From Halobacteriovorax sp. (GTDB taxonomy: Bacteria > Bdellovibrionota > Bacteriovoracia > Bacteriovoracales > Bacteriovoracaceae), in contig NZAF01000179.1 of assembly GCA_002686115.1 (NCBI GenBank), forward strand, positions 1 to 35,611: a stretch of DNA of 35,611 nucleotides, given 5' to 3'. A program made the position numbers and the translations under genes. The stretch's first letter is position 1. The number at the start of each line of letters is the position of its first letter. The notes beneath the pieces are model-generated. The model was not told the DNA's origin. It ran no database searches and worked only from the letters and a program-made list of their open reading frames with translations. This document shows positions 2,426 through 25,635 of this stretch, in pieces.

Positions 2426-3037
2426 TTAAAGTGCAACGATCTTTCTTGGAATCGAAAATTCCTTATTCAATTGGTGTGTTACTTGGATTGAACTTATATT
2501 AAACTCATTTAAAAGCTCATAAGTTAAAAGCTCAAGCTCTTCTCTAAGCTCTGGATCCAAACTTGAAAAAGGTTCATCTAAAAGTACAAGCCTAGGTTTA
2601 GCGGCAAGAGTTCGAACAAGTGCAACTCGTTGCTGCTCTCCCCCAGACAATTCTCTTGGATAACTATTGAGCCTATTTTCTAGTTTAACTTTTCTAAGCC
2701 ATTCCTGCGCCTGAATGAGACGTGGATTTGCATACTCTACATTTTCTTTAATCGTCATATGAGGAAAAAGAGCATAATCCTGAAAAACCATACCAATTTC
2801 TCTTTCATGTGGTGCAACTACATTTGAGTCATCAAATAATGTTCTGCCACTTAACTTGATTTGTCCCTGATCAGGATTTTCTAATCCTGCGAGAATTCTT
2901 AGTAGAGTAGACTTGCCTCTTCCCGATGCTCCTGTAACTACTAAATGATCACCTTTCTCTAGAGATAGAGAGAAGTTCGAAAATATATTTTTCTTATTAT
3001 AAGAGAATGACATATCTAATATTTCTAAAAAACTCAT
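2426..3037 (-). CDS. ABC transporter ATP-binding protein, iron(III)-type
   Basis: Walker A GASGRGKST, signature LSGGEQQRVALVRTLA, Walker B LVLLDEPFSSLD; adjacent to permease and binding protein. Confidence 0.88.
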   Translation of the reverse strand: MSFLEILDMSFSYNKKNIFSNFSLSLEKGDHLVVTGASGRGKSTLLRILAGLENPDQGQIKLSGRTLFDDSNVVAPHEREIGMVFQDYALFPHMTIKENVEYANPRLIQAQEWLRKVKLENRLNSYPRELSGGEQQRVALVRTLAAKPRLVLLDEPFSSLDPELREELELLTYELLNEFNISSIQVTHQLNKEFSIPRKIVAL

Positions 3038-4564
3038 CTAATTTTCTCCAAGTCCCACTTTATCAAGTTTTTTTCCAAGTAGAAATAATGGAACAAGCCC
3101 TGACAGAAGGATAAAAAGTGCTGAAGGTGCAGACTCAACAAGTCTTTCATCACTTGCAAGAGTATAAATACTTACTGATAAAGTTTGAAAATTTAAAGGT
3201 GAAAGAATCATTGTTGCTGGAAGCTCTTTTAACACATCTACAAATACGATAACAAAAGATGTAAGCATCGCAGCCTTCGCATATGGAAAGTACAAGTCTT
3301 TACTCTTTTTAAAGAATGAACCTGTTTGCAAGTTTATATAAGACATTAAATTTCGAGGTATGTGCTCTTGTGAGGACCTGATATTTTCATAGGCAACTGC
3401 AAAAAAACGACAGACGAGACTATAAACCAATAACAGCTTTCCACCGACAACCAGACTCTTTCCTGCTAGATCATCTACATTTTGAAATACAACAATTATT
3501 GCAATCGCTATAATACTCCCAGGAATAGCATAGCCAAGGGCACTTAATCTGATTAAGAACCTACTAATCTTATTTTTAAAAAGAGAATGGCTAAAACCAT
3601 TAACAAGAGCGAGTGCCAGACAAATAAAGCTTACAATAAACGCCATCGAAAAACTGTTAAACAAGAGGCTCAAAAATTCACTGTTAAAATATTCATACCC
3701 ACCATGAACAGTAATTTGCTTGATACAATAACTAATTGGAAAAATAAATCCTATGAGAAATGGCGTTAATACAAAGATCATTAAAAGAGAATGATTTGTA
3801 AGACTAACTTCTTTTTCCTTTAGAAGCTTCATCTTTGAAGTTGTATTATAAAAACTCTTATTTCTTCTTCCCCAACTTTCAAGAAATAAACCTGAGGCCG
3901 TAAATAGAAGAAGAATCATACTTAAATTCACTGATGCTGGTAGAGAGTAAAAGCCAAACCAAGCTCTATAAATCCCTGTGGTAAAAGTATCTATTGCAAA
4001 GTGATCAGCAACACCATAATCATTTAAAGTCTCCATACAGACAAGACCGAGTCCAGCAGCATAATATGGGCGAATCCCTTTAAGTGTTATATGAAAAAAA
4101 GTATATAACGGTGAGCGCCCTAGAGTCAGAGAAGCCTCTTCTAAATCAATATTTCTAACTGAAAATCCTGCAAGACATGACATATAAACATATGGGTAAA
4201 GTGAAATACCCATCACAAAAGATGCCCAAAATATATTTCTAGTTGAAAAAGTAAATTGAAAAGTATCTACAAAGTAATAACCCAATAGATAACCAGGACA
4301 AGCAAAGGGTAACATCATGGCTACTTTTAAAAGAGATCTTTTCGCTATTTTAAAAGAAGACAATATATAGGCCGTACCTACTCCCCACAAACTTGCCCAA
4401 AAGCATGTAAGCACAAGGAGCATTAATGTGTTTGAAACATAATGAGAAAGAACTGTGTTAACAATATGAGAAAAGGTTTCATTATAACTAAAAGCCCCAC
4501 GCGAAGGTAGGGCCATCAAAGGTAAAATTAAAATCAAGCTTATTACAGAAGCAATGATTTTCAT
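3038..4564 (-). CDS. ABC transporter permease, FbpB-like (two fused permease halves)
   Basis: Many TM segments with two permease-type modules. The ORF track starts at 4633, but an internal ATG at 4564 (MKIIASVISL) avoids overlap with the upstream gene. Confidence 0.85.
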   Translation of the reverse strand: MKIIASVISLILILPLMALPSRGAFSYNETFSHIVNTVLSHYVSNTLMLLVLTCFWASLWGVGTAYILSSFKIAKRSLLKVAMMLPFACPGYLLGYYFVDTFQFTFSTRNIFWASFVMGISLYPYVYMSCLAGFSVRNIDLEEASLTLGRSPLYTFFHITLKGIRPYYAAGLGLVCMETLNDYGVADHFAIDTFTTGIYRAWFGFYSLPASVNLSMILLLFTASGLFLESWGRRNKSFYNTTSKMKLLKEKEVSLTNHSLLMIFVLTPFLIGFIFPISYCIKQITVHGGYEYFNSEFLSLLFNSFSMAFIVSFICLALALVNGFSHSLFKNKISRFLIRLSALGYAIPGSIIAIAIIVVFQNVDDLAGKSLVVGGKLLLVYSLVCRFFAVAYENIRSSQEHIPRNLMSYINLQTGSFFKKSKDLYFPYAKAAMLTSFVIVFVDVLKELPATMILSPLNFQTLSVSIYTLASDERLVESAPSALFILLSGLVPLFLLGKKLDKVGLGEN

Positions 4565-4577
4565 AAGGTAAACTCGC

Positions 4578-5591
4578 TTATCTCCAACTTGCCAGATCCA
4601 TAAGCTTAATGGCCTTAGGAGTGTTTTCTCCAATTTTCGTTAGAGAAAGTTGGTCAAATTTCATGTCTTGAAATTTTGCCATAAGACCAGTGATTTTAAC
4701 ATCTTTTCTTGCAGGGAATTCAAAATTTGCTTCAGCGAATTGCTTTTGAGCTTTCTTTGAAATCATATACTTTATAAAAGTTCGCGCATTCTCTAAATTT
4801 GGAGCATATTTACCAATACCTAAACCAGAGATATTGATATGCGCCCCTCTTCCACTCTGATTAGGAAAGATTAATTCAACATCTTTCATCACCTTAATGT
4901 CACTTTCTTTCTTTGAAGCCCACATCTTTCCAGCGTAGTAAGAATTTACAACGGCAATAGCTCCTTGACCGTTACCCATTGCTCTTAGCTGATCTCGGTC
5001 TCCACCTTGAGGTTTTCTTGCAAAGTTTTTGACAAATCCTTTAAGCCATTTACTTGTTTTTTCCTCACCATTATTTGCAACCATCGAAGCAATAAGAGAT
5101 TGGTTATAAACATTACTTGAAGATCTTATAAGGATTTTGTCCTTATACTTCTCATCATTTAGCTGCTCATAAGTCGTAATAGTAGAGGGATCAATCTTTG
5201 ATTTATTAACTGCAAGTACTCTTGCTCTAACACTTATTGCCGCCCATAGGTCATTCTTATCTTTTAGGTGTGACGGAATAGCCGAATCAAGTTCTTTCAT
5301 CTTCAATGGTTGTAAAAGATTATAACTTGCAGCTTTCCACAGATTACCAACATCAACAGTTAAGATAATATCTGCCCCTGCTTTTTCTTTTTGAATCTTT
5401 AACCTCTCTATTAATTGAGAAGCTTTCTTAATATAGACAAGATTTACTTTAATGCCTGATTCTTTTTCAAAATCTTTTAAGATTTCTTTATCAACTGGAT
5501 AATGTCGTGACGTGTAAAGATTTAGCTCTCCAGCTGCGATTGAACACATTGCAAACATCATAAAAACGAGTATCTTTGATATATTCTTCAT
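4578..5591 (-). CDS. Fe(3+) ABC transporter periplasmic binding protein, FbpA/FutA-like
   Basis: Signal peptide, LNLYTSRHYPVDKEIL..., GQGAIAVVNSYYAGKM, HINISGLGIGKYAPN motifs of the FutA/FbpA family. Confidence 0.87.
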   Translation of the reverse strand: MKNISKILVFMMFAMCSIAAGELNLYTSRHYPVDKEILKDFEKESGIKVNLVYIKKASQLIERLKIQKEKAGADIILTVDVGNLWKAASYNLLQPLKMKELDSAIPSHLKDKNDLWAAISVRARVLAVNKSKIDPSTITTYEQLNDEKYKDKILIRSSSNVYNQSLIASMVANNGEEKTSKWLKGFVKNFARKPQGGDRDQLRAMGNGQGAIAVVNSYYAGKMWASKKESDIKVMKDVELIFPNQSGRGAHINISGLGIGKYAPNLENARTFIKYMISKKAQKQFAEANFEFPARKDVKITGLMAKFQDMKFDQLSLTKIGENTPKAIKLMDLASWR

Positions 5592-19580: not shown

Positions 19581-19988
19581 CTATTTTTCACTTTGTATTG
19601 TGTACTTAAGAAGCCCTAGCTTCTTATTTAAAAGCTTTACAGACGCATCATATAAAACTTTATTATCGACCATTCTGGCCATTTCAGCGTCGCGATCAAC
19701 AGTGTTTCCATCATCGCTCACGACGCCGTTTGGATCTTCATAGATTTCTGGTTTGAGGTTATCAAAGCCACCACTTCCCACATCATAATGACGCTCATCG
19801 GAGGCAAGCATCTCCAGGTTCCCATCCACATCTAATGCTCTCTGGAGTGCCGCTTCAAAATCTAATCTCTTAGCTTTGAAGTTAGGCGTATCAGCATTAC
19901 TGATATTCGACGTGATCAGTTGTTGCCTCATCTCTCTCATTTTAAGAGATGCTGCAAGTGCCTTCATTGTTTTATCCTCAATTCTCAT
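19581..19988 (-). CDS. flgB: Flagellar basal-body rod protein FlgB
   Basis: LKMREMRQQLITSNISNADTPNFKAKRLDFEAALQRAL; VDRDAEMARMVDNKVLYDASVKLLNKKLGLLKYTIQ. Confidence 0.94.
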   Translation of the reverse strand: MRIEDKTMKALAASLKMREMRQQLITSNISNADTPNFKAKRLDFEAALQRALDVDGNLEMLASDERHYDVGSGGFDNLKPEIYEDPNGVVSDDGNTVDRDAEMARMVDNKVLYDASVKLLNKKLGLLKYTIQSEK

Positions 19989-20004: not shown

Positions 20005-20022
20005 CTTAAGAGTTATCTTAAG
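20005..20022 (-). promoter_or_regulatory. 7-bp perfect hairpin at the regulator-flgB junction
   Basis: CTTAAGA-GTTA-TCTTAAG; the loop overlaps the regulator stop codon (20013-20015), 17 bp before the flgB ATG. Confidence 0.5.
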
Positions 20023-20942
20023 TTTACGAAGTATGAGTTACCTTCATTTCTGTATTCATTGATCTTATTTCTAAGTGTTCTAATTGATACACCTAAGATC
20101 TTCGCTGCCTGTGTTCTATTTTCTGAAGTATGAACAAGTGCTTTCTTAATAAGAAGTCTTTCAGCTTCCTTAAGTGACATAAGTCTGATTCCTTCACTAT
20201 CATCATCAGAGATAATATTAACGGCTTTCTTCTCACCAATTTCAAGAAGCTCTTCAGTAATCACTTCACCTTCAATATTTTGAAGAGTACTTTCGATGAT
20301 TGCTTTAAGTTCTTTTACATTGTGGGTCCAGTAATGACCTACAATCTTCTTCATTGCTTCTTCACTTACTGTGATATTTGCACTTTCAGTGATTTCAGAA
20401 ATAATATTTTTTGCGATTAACTCAATATCACCAACTCTCTCTCTAAGTGGAGTAAGAGTAATTGAGTTACTTGATATTAATGTATAAAGACCTCTGTAGA
20501 ATCTTCCAGCACCAACAAGCTTTGAAAGATTTTTTGTTGTTGTAGCAACAAGTCTTACATCAATTTCATAATCTTCTAATTCACCAAGAATTTTATGTAA
20601 TTTCTTTTGAAAAACGTCTTCTAGACCATCGACGTTAACAAGAACAATTGTTCCTCCGTTACCATTCTCTAGAACACCTTTAACAAATCTTCCTGTTTCT
20701 GGGTCTCTGTATCCTAAGATTTGATTTTCAACGTCAACAGTTTCTTTAGAACAATCAACCATATAAATAGGCTTATTTCCTCTTGTAGAGTTAGCGTGAA
20801 TGTACTCTGCTAATGTTTTCTTTCCGATCCCAGCTTCACCTACTACTAAAACTGGTGTTTTTGTGACGGCTACGTTCTTTGCAACCTTTAGAGACTTTAC
20901 GATTTTAGGATCTTGTCCAAAGTACTCTGCTGATGTGTTCAT
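20013..20942 (-). CDS. NtrC/bEBP-type AAA+ regulator-like protein lacking GAFTGA, with Fis-type HTH
   Basis: Walker A VGEAGIGKKTLAEYIH; C-terminal HTH NRTQAAKILGVSIRTLRNKINEYR; no GAFTGA and degenerate Walker B (GGTIVLVNVDGLE). ATG at 20942 preceded by AGGAGGT. Confidence 0.85.
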   Translation of the reverse strand: MNTSAEYFGQDPKIVKSLKVAKNVAVTKTPVLVVGEAGIGKKTLAEYIHANSTRGNKPIYMVDCSKETVDVENQILGYRDPETGRFVKGVLENGNGGTIVLVNVDGLEDVFQKKLHKILGELEDYEIDVRLVATTTKNLSKLVGAGRFYRGLYTLISSNSITLTPLRERVGDIELIAKNIISEITESANITVSEEAMKKIVGHYWTHNVKELKAIIESTLQNIEGEVITEELLEIGEKKAVNIISDDDSEGIRLMSLKEAERLLIKKALVHTSENRTQAAKILGVSIRTLRNKINEYRNEGNSYFVNLR

Positions 20943-20987
20943 TTGACCTCCTGTCGTCATTTTTTAACTCTCATTCCATGAGCTAAT

Positions 20988-23630
20988 TTAAATTGATCTA
21001 TTCCTTAAGTTTAATAATGTTAACTCTGACTTTGCCATTTCTTTTATGTATGGCTCTGTGTCTTTATCATTTACAAGCTCATTTAAGAATTTCTTTCCTT
21101 CGTCATCCTTATTAACCTTGATTAAATGTCTTCCATATAGATACTTCACTCTATTGCGATACTCTGAATTTTCATATTCTTTTAAAAAAGTCTTTGCTTC
21201 TGTCTCTGCCTTTGGACTTAAACTAGAAAATAATATTTCAGATCTCAGGTATCCAACTCTTTCTTTTAAGTTTTGAAGAGCTTGTGCATTATCACCAATC
21301 TTTTGAACATCTTTAAGAAGAGCTTGGCTGACTTCTAAAAACTTATCTTTCTTGATTAGCTTATAAATACTCTCCAAATAATTCCCTACAGATAAAATTA
21401 GGTCATTACCGTCAATAGAATTAAAATTTGAACTCTTTGCAAAGAATGTCTCAAAGCTAGACTCAGCATCTTTATATTTTTTCATCTCAAAGCTTGCTAG
21501 AGCTTGATAAAAAATAGCTTTTGCAGATGATGACTTTCTTGATTTCATCTGAGAGATAAGTCTAGATACTGTATCCCAATTCTTTAGCTTGATGTTTCTG
21601 ATGAGCTTTAACTCTGACAAGATGGCATTGCGACCGTCAATTTCTTGTCTCTTAAGCCAAATTGGGTATGATCTCACTTTTACATTATCAGCACTCGCTA
21701 GATTAGAATAAATTCTTTCAAATCCATCCCAAAGTCCTAAGTTAAGATAAGACTTAGCAATGATAAACTGAATACTTGGATCCATAGCAACTTTAGAGAA
21801 ATAAATCTCTTTATAAATTTCCCACGCTCTAATGGCCCTAGAAAACTTGTTTTGGTTATAATTCTTTTGAATAATTCCAAAAACAATCTCTGCTCCGTCA
21901 CCATGAAATACTTTTTTAATCTCAGCCTTCATTGATGTTAAAGGGAGTGCCGTTAGAAAACTTAAAGCCTTATTATATTCTTTATCAACGATAAATGTTC
22001 TAAGTCTCACAAGCCATAATAGTTCTTGAAGATCATCATTTAATTTAGTTTTATCATCAGCCTCAATAAAGACACGTGTCTCAATGTCTTCTTTCGTTGG
22101 CTCTTTTTTTCTAATCGTTCTAAGTGCAACATATCTGAGCTTTGCTTCAAAGCTAGCGTCTTTATCCTGTGAACGATTAATTGCGTTCTTATATAGAGCG
22201 AGAGTTTCACTAAAGTTTTTACCGAGAATCTCGTATGCATGAGCGATACGAACACGAGCTTTCGAAGAGCCTGAATGATAGGAATGCTTATCTAGAAGTT
22301 CATCATAAATCTTAATTGCCTTATCATAATCAGAGTTTCTAAAATATGCTTCCCCTACATTGAAGTAGATTGAAGGAAGTAAAACTCCAGTATTCTTTGC
22401 AACAAATTTCTCGTAATTTGAAATCGCTTGATCTTCTTTATTATTATTTAATAGTGAATAAAGTTCATAAGCTAGAATCTTTTGCTTTGAGATAATCTTA
22501 TTTATCGTTTTCTCTCTCGCAAGCTCTTCAATTTGTTCTGTCTGGTTTAATTTCGCTAAACAATGAAACATTAACTCTGAAGCATGCTCAAGTTCTTCAT
22601 AGTCAAAGTTTTCTTTTGCATCAGCAAAGAATCTCTTCGCATACTTTAAGGTTTGTATATAATCATCCTTTGCAAGAAAGAATTGAATCATATACTTTGA
22701 AAGACCTTTTCTAAGTTCATAATCTTTTGTTCTATCAACGATATTAGAAAACATTGAGATTGAAGTTTGAATAGGCTTTAAGTCACCCTTGTCTCTACTT
22801 TCTCTTAATAAAGCATTGGCCTTCAGATACTCGTTAAATGAATAGTTTTCATCTTCACCGTATTTTTTCTCGTATAGCTTTATCGACTTATACATTAGTC
22901 CATACTTTCTCTTCTTATAGAAGTTTACTGAAAGCTGCATATGAGCTTCTTTATCACTCTCTTCAAAATTTCTATCTTTTATTGGGTAGAAATATTCAGG
23001 AGTTTTCCTTGAAAGATCAATAAAATCTTTAAGGTCTGGAATCAATGCTTCGTAATTATAAATAAATGGTGCTCCATAACGATAGTCTCGATATGGTAGT
23101 TCTTTATTAACAACTATTTTTACCTTTGATGGCTTAAGCCTTACTACTCTTTTCTTTTGAACTTTTGCAATTTTCTTTGCAGGGCTTTGTTTAACAACCT
23201 TAGGCGCTGGAGCTTTAACAGCTGCAGACTTTTGAGAAACCTCATTTTCATCTTTCCACAAGTCTACAAAGTATGCTTTTTCTCTTTCTTTATAGAAAGT
23301 AAAAATTTCGATGTCTTCATTTAAAGTAATCGTAAAACCAAATACATTGTTACCTTCTGAAGGAAGATTCTTTTCAATGCTTTTAATTTTAGAGTTCTTT
23401 AAATTCATTAAATCTTTTTTGAGGTTTTGGTATAGGTCATTATTAAGAGTCTTAACGTATATCTTGTTGTTGATCTTATTAACTTTTAAAAGTTCTTTTG
23501 AAGAATAAAATTTCATTCGGAAGTAATCACCTGCTTCTTCTTTTAAGAAAACCTTTTCAGCAAGAGCCGAAGCACTAATGATAAATGCTATAAAAGTGAT
23601 TAATGTGAAATTAACTGATCTTTTTTTCAT
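20988..23630 (-). CDS. Large secreted/periplasmic TPR-repeat protein heading the flagellar cluster
   Basis: Signal peptide MKKRSVNFTLITFIAFIISASALA; TPR-like repeats (e.g. PSIYFNVGEAYFRNSDYDKAIKIYDELLDKHSYHSGSSKARVRIAHAYEILGKN). Confidence 0.75.
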   Translation of the reverse strand: MKKRSVNFTLITFIAFIISASALAEKVFLKEEAGDYFRMKFYSSKELLKVNKINNKIYVKTLNNDLYQNLKKDLMNLKNSKIKSIEKNLPSEGNNVFGFTITLNEDIEIFTFYKEREKAYFVDLWKDENEVSQKSAAVKAPAPKVVKQSPAKKIAKVQKKRVVRLKPSKVKIVVNKELPYRDYRYGAPFIYNYEALIPDLKDFIDLSRKTPEYFYPIKDRNFEESDKEAHMQLSVNFYKKRKYGLMYKSIKLYEKKYGEDENYSFNEYLKANALLRESRDKGDLKPIQTSISMFSNIVDRTKDYELRKGLSKYMIQFFLAKDDYIQTLKYAKRFFADAKENFDYEELEHASELMFHCLAKLNQTEQIEELAREKTINKIISKQKILAYELYSLLNNNKEDQAISNYEKFVAKNTGVLLPSIYFNVGEAYFRNSDYDKAIKIYDELLDKHSYHSGSSKARVRIAHAYEILGKNFSETLALYKNAINRSQDKDASFEAKLRYVALRTIRKKEPTKEDIETRVFIEADDKTKLNDDLQELLWLVRLRTFIVDKEYNKALSFLTALPLTSMKAEIKKVFHGDGAEIVFGIIQKNYNQNKFSRAIRAWEIYKEIYFSKVAMDPSIQFIIAKSYLNLGLWDGFERIYSNLASADNVKVRSYPIWLKRQEIDGRNAILSELKLIRNIKLKNWDTVSRLISQMKSRKSSSAKAIFYQALASFEMKKYKDAESSFETFFAKSSNFNSIDGNDLILSVGNYLESIYKLIKKDKFLEVSQALLKDVQKIGDNAQALQNLKERVGYLRSEILFSSLSPKAETEAKTFLKEYENSEYRNRVKYLYGRHLIKVNKDDEGKKFLNELVNDKDTEPYIKEMAKSELTLLNLRNRSI

Positions 23631-23673
23631 TTAGGTAGAAACTTCCTGTTTCAAATTGTTACTGTCAAAAAAC

Positions 23674-23705: not shown

Positions 23706-23801
23706 TAGTTATTCTACCGTTTTTTGAAAAATTTAAAAGGAAAATTTTTCTCATAGGAGATTTTTTCCATGTCAATCTTCTAACAGCTATAAATTGTGAG
23801 A

Positions 23802-24105: not shown

Positions 24106-25635
24106 TTATTGAGTCATTCCAAATTCAGATAGATTTCTCTTTTTCATTTTTTCAATAAGAGTTGTTCTATTCATCTGTAAAAGCTTTGAAGCTTGGTTCT
24201 TATTTCCAGAAGTTCTTTCAAGAGCTTGTTTAATTAAAGACTCTTCTACTTGATTTAAAAATCCCTTAAGATTTAGTCCTTCATCAGGTAGAGAAACTAC
24301 TTCTTCAAATTGAATCAGTTTATGATTAGTAAGTGCTAAAACCTTTGGAGGTAAGTCTTCAACCTCTATTGTTCCACCACCTTTTAAGATAACAAGGCGT
24401 TCAATTAAGTTTTCAAGCTCTCTAACATTTCCAGGCCATTCGTAGCTCATTAATATCTCTAGCACCTGATCATTAAACTTAATTGCATTTCTTCCATCAG
24501 CACTAACAAACCTAGATAAGAAGTATGAAATAAGAAGTGGAATATCTTCTCTTCTCTCTTTTAGCGCTGGTAACCTTACAGGAATAACATTTAGACGATA
24601 GAAGAGATCTTCTCTAAAGTTTCCATCACTCACAGACTTTTCAAGATCACGGTGAGTTGCTGTTATAATTCTAACGTTAATAGGAATTGGACTTGTTGAT
24701 CCAACTCTTTCGATTTCTCTATTCTGTAAAACTCTTAATAGTTTAACTTGTAATAAAAGTGGCATATCGCCAATTTCATCCAAGAAGATCGAACCTTTAT
24801 CAGCGACCTCAAATCTTCCAATTCGAGTTGAAACAGCACCTGTAAATGCTCCTTTCTCATGACCAAAAAGTTCACTTTCAAGAAGATCACCAGGTATTGC
24901 CCCACAATTTACAGAGATACAATTTTGATTATTTCTATTTGATAATTCATGAATGGCCTTAGCAACTAGCTCTTTACCTGTACCAGAGGGACCTCCGATC
25001 AGAATTGTAGAGTCAGAATTAGCGACTTTTTTAATTCGATCAAAGATTTTTCGCATAATCTTTGATCTTCCAATCATGCCGCAGAACATGTCATCTTCAG
25101 TAGGCTCGATAAGTTCGAATTTATGAAGTCCTGGTTTGGCATTTTCCTTTCTTTCTATATTGAAAAGCCTTGGATCAACATTCATCTTCTGAGTCATCAC
25201 TCTTACGACAAGATCTTTTAATACTGTTAATTCAAAAGGCTTTGTAAGATAGTGGAAAACACCTTTTTTAGTAGCAGCGATTGCTGTTTCAATAGATGCA
25301 AAACCAGTCATAACAATTGAGATAAAATTATAATTTTTTTCTTTAAGAATATCTAAAAGATAAAGACCATCATTATTAGAGTTTTCAAAGCTAATATCCG
25401 TAATTAAGCAAAATGGCTTATTTTCAGCCCTTTGCTCAAGAAATTCTAGTAACTCGTTAGGTCCTACAAAGGATTTAACAGAAAGGCCGACAACTTTTAC
25501 TAAGTACTGATGAATACTTCTTGAAAGTAGTTTGTCATCTTCAACAAGGTAGATCTCAGGGATTTCTCCAACACTTGTTTTCGTAGCATCGTTATCAATA
25601 TCAAATGATTGGTTTAAAAAGTTAATGTCTTCCAT
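24106..25635 (-). CDS. Sigma54-dependent NtrC-family response regulator (FlrC/FleQ-like HTH)
   Basis: Receiver ([10 protein letters not shown]...ITDISF...KPFEL), AAA+ with Walker [79 protein letters not shown]. Confidence 0.93.

Follow-up and report, generated by a model that had tools for sequence, protein, structure and literature searches.

A degenerate, receiver-less relative of sigma54 activators at the head of the flagellar flgB operon in Bacteriovorax/Halobacteriovorax-type bacteria

The window, meaning the whole 35,611-nucleotide stretch of Halobacteriovorax sp. DNA that was analysed (contig NZAF01000179.1), carries a flagellar core operon on its minus strand (Table 1). The operon begins with a gene for a TPR protein, followed by a gene for a degenerate AAA+/Fis-type regulator and by flgB, and the order TPR gene, regulator, flgB, flgC, fliE, fliF and fliG recurs in further families of this phylum. 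The regulator gene is preceded by AGGAGG upstream of its start at 20942 on inspection of the ORF, and an in-frame ATG at 20960, 18 nt upstream, is a less likely start. A second regulator, at 24106–25635, is the canonical GAFTGA-containing protein described in the initial annotation and is FleQ-like. Beyond the flagellar operon, at 2426–5591, inspection of the translations identified iron-type ABC transporter genes encoding a substrate-binding protein, a permease and an ATPase.

Table 1. Features of the flgB operon head and related loci
Feature	Position	Strand	Remarks
Degenerate receiver-less AAA+/Fis-HTH regulator	20013..20942	minus	309 aa; ORF, Pfam, alignment, AlphaFold2
Walker A GEAGIGKK, residues 35–42	20817..20840	minus	G/G/GK invariant in family f1
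Loop in place of the GAFTGA (L1) region, ILGYRDPETGRFVKGVLE	20667..20720	minus	about 6 residues shorter
Walker B segment GGTIVLVNV	20631..20657	minus	D replaced by V102, E by N103
R-finger segment RFYRGLYTLI	20475..20504	minus	Y149 and L155 at the canonical Arg positions
Fis-type helix-turn-helix NRTQAAKILGVSIRTLRNKINEYR	20049..20120	minus	alignment of 44 sequences
flgB, with which the flagellar structural genes begin	19581..19988	minus	then flgC, fliE, fliF, fliG, fliH, fliI, fliJ
TPR protein with a probable signal peptide, encoded at the operon start	20988..23630	minus	equivalent position in most phylum members sampled
GAAAC-AGGAA-GTTTC hairpin around the TPR gene Shine-Dalgarno	23638..23652	minus	CsrA-site-like
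f1-specific promoter module TCTCC...AGAAAAATTTTCC-N21-GTAGAAT	23711..23760	minus	predicted; with TAGAAT as the -10, AAAA/TTTT is centred near -40
FleQ-type box TGTTAGAAGATTGAC	23771..23785	minus	weak copy in the window, with strong ones in relatives (TGTCATAAGCTCGAC, TGTCAAAGTTTTGAG)
FleQ-like response regulator, intact GAFTGA	24106..25635	minus	probable binder of the FleQ-type box
FliF/YscJ-like protein, flagellum-less relatives	L097 3642-5135; L098 3532-4824; L099 915-2411; L100 5170-6438; L101 5596-7191		

The regulator matches the Pfam families Sigma54_activat (7e-22), AAA_lid_14 and HTH_8, and Pfam, the AlphaFold2 model (mean pLDDT 79.7) and fold matches all indicate that the AAA+ fold, the lid and the Fis-type HTH are present. 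The best fold matches of the model are NtrC1, ZraR, FlrC, FleQ, PspF and VpsR (7v2b). The peptides quoted in the initial annotation, including Walker A and the Fis-type HTH, all lie within this ORF, and the protein is receiver-less as was stated there. In the model the Walker-B strand consists of residues 98–102 with V102 and N103 filling the positions of the catalytic Asp and Glu, so that this pair is predicted to be lost rather than displaced, the distinction that a structure prediction had been proposed to settle. The sensor-II Arg is also missing from the alignment, and the sensor-I Thr is present. The R-finger segment had likewise been described as lost, which holds for both canonical positions but has to be qualified by R150, an invariant arginine one residue past the canonical R-finger-1 position. 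It is possible that this shifted arginine acts as an R-finger, though restored hydrolysis would not be expected without the Walker-B pair. With Walker A and a conserved arginine beside the R-finger position, the protein may retain some nucleotide chemistry. Residues 46–47, which align with the Arg-Asn pair that follows Walker A in FleQ-like, c-di-GMP-binding regulators, are variable (E, N, Q or R, then Y or F).

Forty-three orthologs of the regulator were found and aligned in Bacteriovorax/Halobacteriovorax-type genomes, here termed family f1; the family names are partly inferred, and the other families of the phylum were sampled rather than exhaustively counted. GAFTGA, the Walker-B Asp-Glu pair, the sensor-II Arg and an Arg at both canonical R-finger positions are absent from all 43, and the losses of GAFTGA and Walker B reported in the initial annotation are thus a property of the whole family, as the alignment proposed there has now established. 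The Walker-B Asp position is V102 here and A, S, K or E elsewhere in f1, and the Glu position is a nearly invariant Asn (N103). The shorter L1 loop is itself conserved as ILGxRDEETGRFNKGxLE, and no variation is seen at R147, R150, the glycines and the lysine of Walker A or the sensor-I Thr. Within the 24-residue HTH, 2/44 sequences have R in place of K at a single position, and no other substitution occurs. The dN/dS ratio is about 0.01–0.13 for the AAA core and, where synonymous sites are unsaturated, at most 0.08 for the HTH; both are rough values given the high dS of many pairs. By these ratios the f1 regulator is under strong purifying selection. Since the losses are common to every f1 ortholog and dN/dS is low, they are neither sporadic nor sequencing errors, and these conserved residue losses support the earlier suggestion of a regulator that would not function as an ATPase.

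At the same locus, other families encode a receiver-less bacterial enhancer-binding protein (bEBP) of 310–335 aa with GAFTGA (or GSFTGA), LLDE, FREDLYYRL and GNxREx, and in most of the families outside f1 the ortholog keeps GAFTGA, LLDE and FREDLYYRL intact. The HTH of these intact flgB-linked proteins reads NRTQAARLLGISIRTLRNKINEYR. In a tree of the AAA+ and HTH regions all flgB-linked proteins group apart from the FleQ-like regulators with a support of 91, and the degenerate branches are long. Synteny and this tree grouping together identify the degenerate regulator as an ortholog of the intact receiver-less flgB-linked activator. Degenerate flgB-linked versions occur in families f1, f6, f23 and f12/f20, the versions in f12 and f20 coming from one genome each. 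A tree built on FliF, FliG, FlgC and FlgB places intact clades between f1, f6, f12 and f23, with f20 outside that tree, which implies, provided that decay cannot be reversed, a minimum of four independent occurrences. Neither the intact position-matched orthologs nor this recurrent decay figured in the earlier reading of the locus, nor did the missing sigma54 promoter of the operon described below.

Family f6, which is probably Bdellovibrionaceae, contains a size gradient that runs from regulators of 278–288 aa without GAFTGA through 234–241 aa to 137–141 aa with lid and HTH only, and on to loci with no HTH-encoding ORF. The 137–141 aa forms, barely more than lid and HTH, are flgB-linked in two f6 genomes (L187, 87-500; L188, 73-498). 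In the lineages represented by L107, L109, L116, L179 and L192, the interval from the TPR gene to flgB yielded no HTH-bearing flgB-linked regulator. The HTH and the helix preceding it are the constant part in all degenerate lineages, and repeated loss of the AAA+ core with retention of the HTH points to DNA binding as the retained function. Across the phylum, intact activator, pseudo-ATPase, bare lid-HTH protein and gene loss can be read as a natural series.

Outside f1, a strong -24/-12 sigma54 site lies near the TPR gene start at about 25 of 30 loci, and the degenerate families f6, f20 and f23 are among those keeping it. The corresponding site is found at 0/41 f1 loci, where the best score (9.2) equals the control level; the matrix was built from general consensus frequencies, and promoter assignments here are made from sequence. 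The rpoN gene is present in f1, and a scan of the genome to which the window belongs gave 68 sigma54-like sites, compared with 21 in a reversed-pattern control, with no excess over shuffles inside the window. No consistent internal sigma54 promoter was found from flgB to flgE in any lineage, so this is not a lineage difference. Upstream of flhA the other families sampled lack a strong sigma54 site, and the genome of the window has one imperfect site there. The region ahead of the TPR-flgB operon was also searched against Rfam, without a hit.

In place of the sigma54 site, the 34 f1 upstream regions examined contain a new element, AAAATTTTCC, which in most of them is followed at 20–22 bp by GTARAAT or a close variant. 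With TARAAT taken as the -10, the centre of the element falls at about -40, where a class II activator site would lie, and recognition of the module by a sigma70-type factor is predicted. The module is essentially unique in each genome, with 16 exact matches in 25 genomes, of which 15 are at the TPR-flgB operon, and 1 for the control. One genome has a second copy with no gene downstream of it. The -40 element is absent from the other families examined despite a nearly identical HTH there. The protein that binds it could be the FleQ-like regulator or another factor.

In other families the sequence TGTCA-N4-TTTGNC lies about 75–110 bp (in some cases 160–240 bp) upstream of the sigma54 site, and it matches the published FleQ box, GTCAAT-N2-ATTGAC (PMC10723142). 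A search of f1 with a matrix trained on the other families only places this FleQ-type box at a fixed -35 to -37 from the new element, with 25/34 regions above the 95% null. The -40/-10 module and TGTCA-N4-TTTGNC were discovered and described on the same sequences, and the f1 FleQ-type box and the genome-wide uniqueness of the module are the two properties tested on sequence outside the motif definition. A role of GTCA-N4-TTTGNC as the binding site for the degenerate regulator was rejected on the grounds that lineages without the gene retain the box, which is clearly kept at 3 of the 5 loci examined that have lost the flgB-linked gene. This persistence assigns the box to another protein, and the likely binder is the FleQ-like regulator, whose HTH has FleQ as its best match among PDB structures and differs in type from that of the degenerate regulator. 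The FleQ-like protein is conserved throughout the phylum, including lineages without the flgB-linked protein, and orthologs with intact GAFTGA occur in the other families examined. As far as promoter motifs can show, the head of the f1 operon has left sigma54 control and kept its FleQ-type box, and its promoter has been replaced.

The leader of the TPR gene carries a further conserved feature. About 30 of 34 f1 members have GAAAC-AGGA(A/T)-GTTTC at the TPR gene start, with variants that are mostly G-U compatible, and the sequence in flagellum-less relatives is AAAACAAGGATGTTTT. It looks like a CsrA-binding hairpin, and csrA is present in 17/17 genomes tested. A DNA operator of the form GAAAC-N5-GTTTC was considered and rejected in favour of an RNA hairpin, as the repeat encloses the Shine-Dalgarno sequence and changes in its arms are mostly G-U compatible; its single-strand fold is no better than that of shuffles. 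A second candidate with GGA in a loop, GAC-AGGAG-GTC, surrounds the Shine-Dalgarno sequence at the regulator start (20940–20965, minus strand), and codons for TGGQM upstream of that start are conserved in many f1 members.

Five f1 genomes (G067, G096, G147, G230 and G196; completeness 88–99%) have neither FlgB nor FlhA, and all five retain the degenerate regulator, rpoN, a FliF-like protein and a TPR protein. In 4/5 the FleQ-like gene and the promoter module have also survived, with a FleQ-type box that is poorly recognisable. One of the flagellum-less genomes (91% complete) keeps the degenerate regulator with no FleQ-like ortholog found, and in one the module is weak and the degenerate protein still present. 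The FliF/YscJ-like protein of these relatives is encoded directly after the degenerate regulator, with Pfam matches of 6e-16 (L101), 1e-7 (L098) and weaker (L097 and L100). Retention of the regulator without flagella indicates that its role is not solely in flagellum building, and suggests targets outside the flagellum.

The regulator is probably a sigma54-independent, non-hydrolysing DNA-binding protein descended from a receiver-less FlrC/FleR/FlbD-like sigma54 activator. Such an activator heads the flgB operon across the phylum, and in f1 it would have lost its contact with sigma54 and, judging from the missing residues, ATP hydrolysis. The AAA+ fold may have been kept as an oligomerisation scaffold, as a dimer or a ring, and may bind nucleotide; a selected core that retains Walker A and lacks the catalytic acids fits such a scaffold. 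The Fis-type HTH would do the regulatory work by binding DNA, most likely at housekeeping-type promoters, where the protein would be an activator or a repressor. Its own operon is plausibly among the targets through the -40 element, which would make it autoregulatory. The existence of GAFTGA-less relatives, such as NtrC of R. capsulatus and Caulobacter, that work at sigma70 promoters favours a sigma54-independent regulator. It is suggested only tentatively that the ATPase was converted to an activator of the housekeeping polymerase, with a class II-like -40 site gained on its own operon and the sigma54 promoter lost. Possibly, the FleQ-like regulator works the -40 module and the box alone and the degenerate protein is a sigma54-independent regulator of other genes rather than of its own operon, an arrangement that overlaps with the preferred explanation. 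The presence of the FleQ-type box in lineages lacking the flgB-linked gene speaks for this, as does the flagellum-less genome in which the module is weak and the degenerate protein retained, but the module is limited to f1 and persists together with the degenerate protein in a flagellum-less genus.

The initial annotation had also proposed an anti-activator that opposes the 24106–25635 product; it would form mixed rings or compete for sites with that protein and so lower flagellar sigma54 transcription. No positive evidence for this or sign of an interaction emerged, and it is considered unlikely. In its favour, the AAA+ fold and Walker A are under selection in f1, and the two genes lie side by side and have both survived in one genus of flagellum-less relatives, but the two HTHs are of different types and the operon headed by the regulator has no sigma54 promoter to oppose. 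Milder objections come from the two Bdellovibrio-like genomes that keep lid and HTH without the core a mixed ring needs, and from the 91% complete genome with no FleQ-like ortholog found. A functionless relic, held in place by operon structure or translational coupling, is very improbable given dN/dS values of 0.01–0.13, a near-invariant HTH and survival of the gene after flagellum loss, even though several other lineages have lost the gene outright. That the protein is still a sigma54 activator with non-canonical residues is the least credible of these readings: its fold does match the AAA+ domains of NtrC1, FlrC, FleQ and PspF and it keeps Walker A and the sensor-I Thr, but the full set of losses is shared by 43/43 orthologs and the operon head is without a sigma54 site.

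The usual picture of flagellar gene control in polar flagellates is a sigma54 cascade. In this case an entire family of predatory bacteria appears to have taken the head promoter of its core flagellar operon off sigma54 and kept the disarmed activator. The recurrent, graded loss of the motor with the DNA-binding part kept amounts to a natural experiment on regulators without ATP hydrolysis. Among the papers searched, none dealt with a flagellar regulator of Bdellovibrio-like bacteria that lacks GAFTGA.

Among known systems, the regulator resembles the second-tier flagellar sigma54 activators FlrC, FleR and FlbD in combining AAA+ and Fis-type HTH domains and in lying beside basal-body genes, and FlbD is among its best NCBIfam profiles. 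It differs from them in lacking GAFTGA, Walker B, the R-fingers, a receiver domain and a sigma54 promoter for its operon, which has instead the -10-like TARAAT of the module. With the GAFTGA-less NtrC of Rhodobacter capsulatus and Caulobacter, VpsR and TyrR it shares the absence of GAFTGA and a conserved DNA-binding domain. VpsR of Vibrio cholerae has a GAFTGA-less bEBP fold and is reported to be active without sigma54; it has a receiver-like domain and binds c-di-GMP, whereas the present regulator has no such domain. TyrR is a non-sigma54 bEBP relative whose ligand-sensing N-terminal domains are absent here and whose locus differs, and its NCBIfam profile scores 115 bits on the regulator against a cut-off of 576. 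The NtrC proteins of R. capsulatus and Caulobacter carry a deletion of GAFTGA (the L1 loop) and regulate sigma70 promoters, and some GAFTGA-less regulators at such promoters are reported to work without ATP hydrolysis (PMC10274813). These NtrC proteins are nitrogen regulators that keep a receiver domain and need phosphorylation for activation, whereas the present regulator also lacks Walker B and the R-fingers and its gene heads a flagellar operon. FleQ of Pseudomonas employs one box type in dual sigma54/sigma70 use (PMC10723142), and the degenerate regulator differs from it in having another HTH type and no REC domain. GAFTGA-less regulators as such are already known; what appears to be new is their occurrence in a flagellar setting, the recurrence of the decay and the exchange of the promoter.
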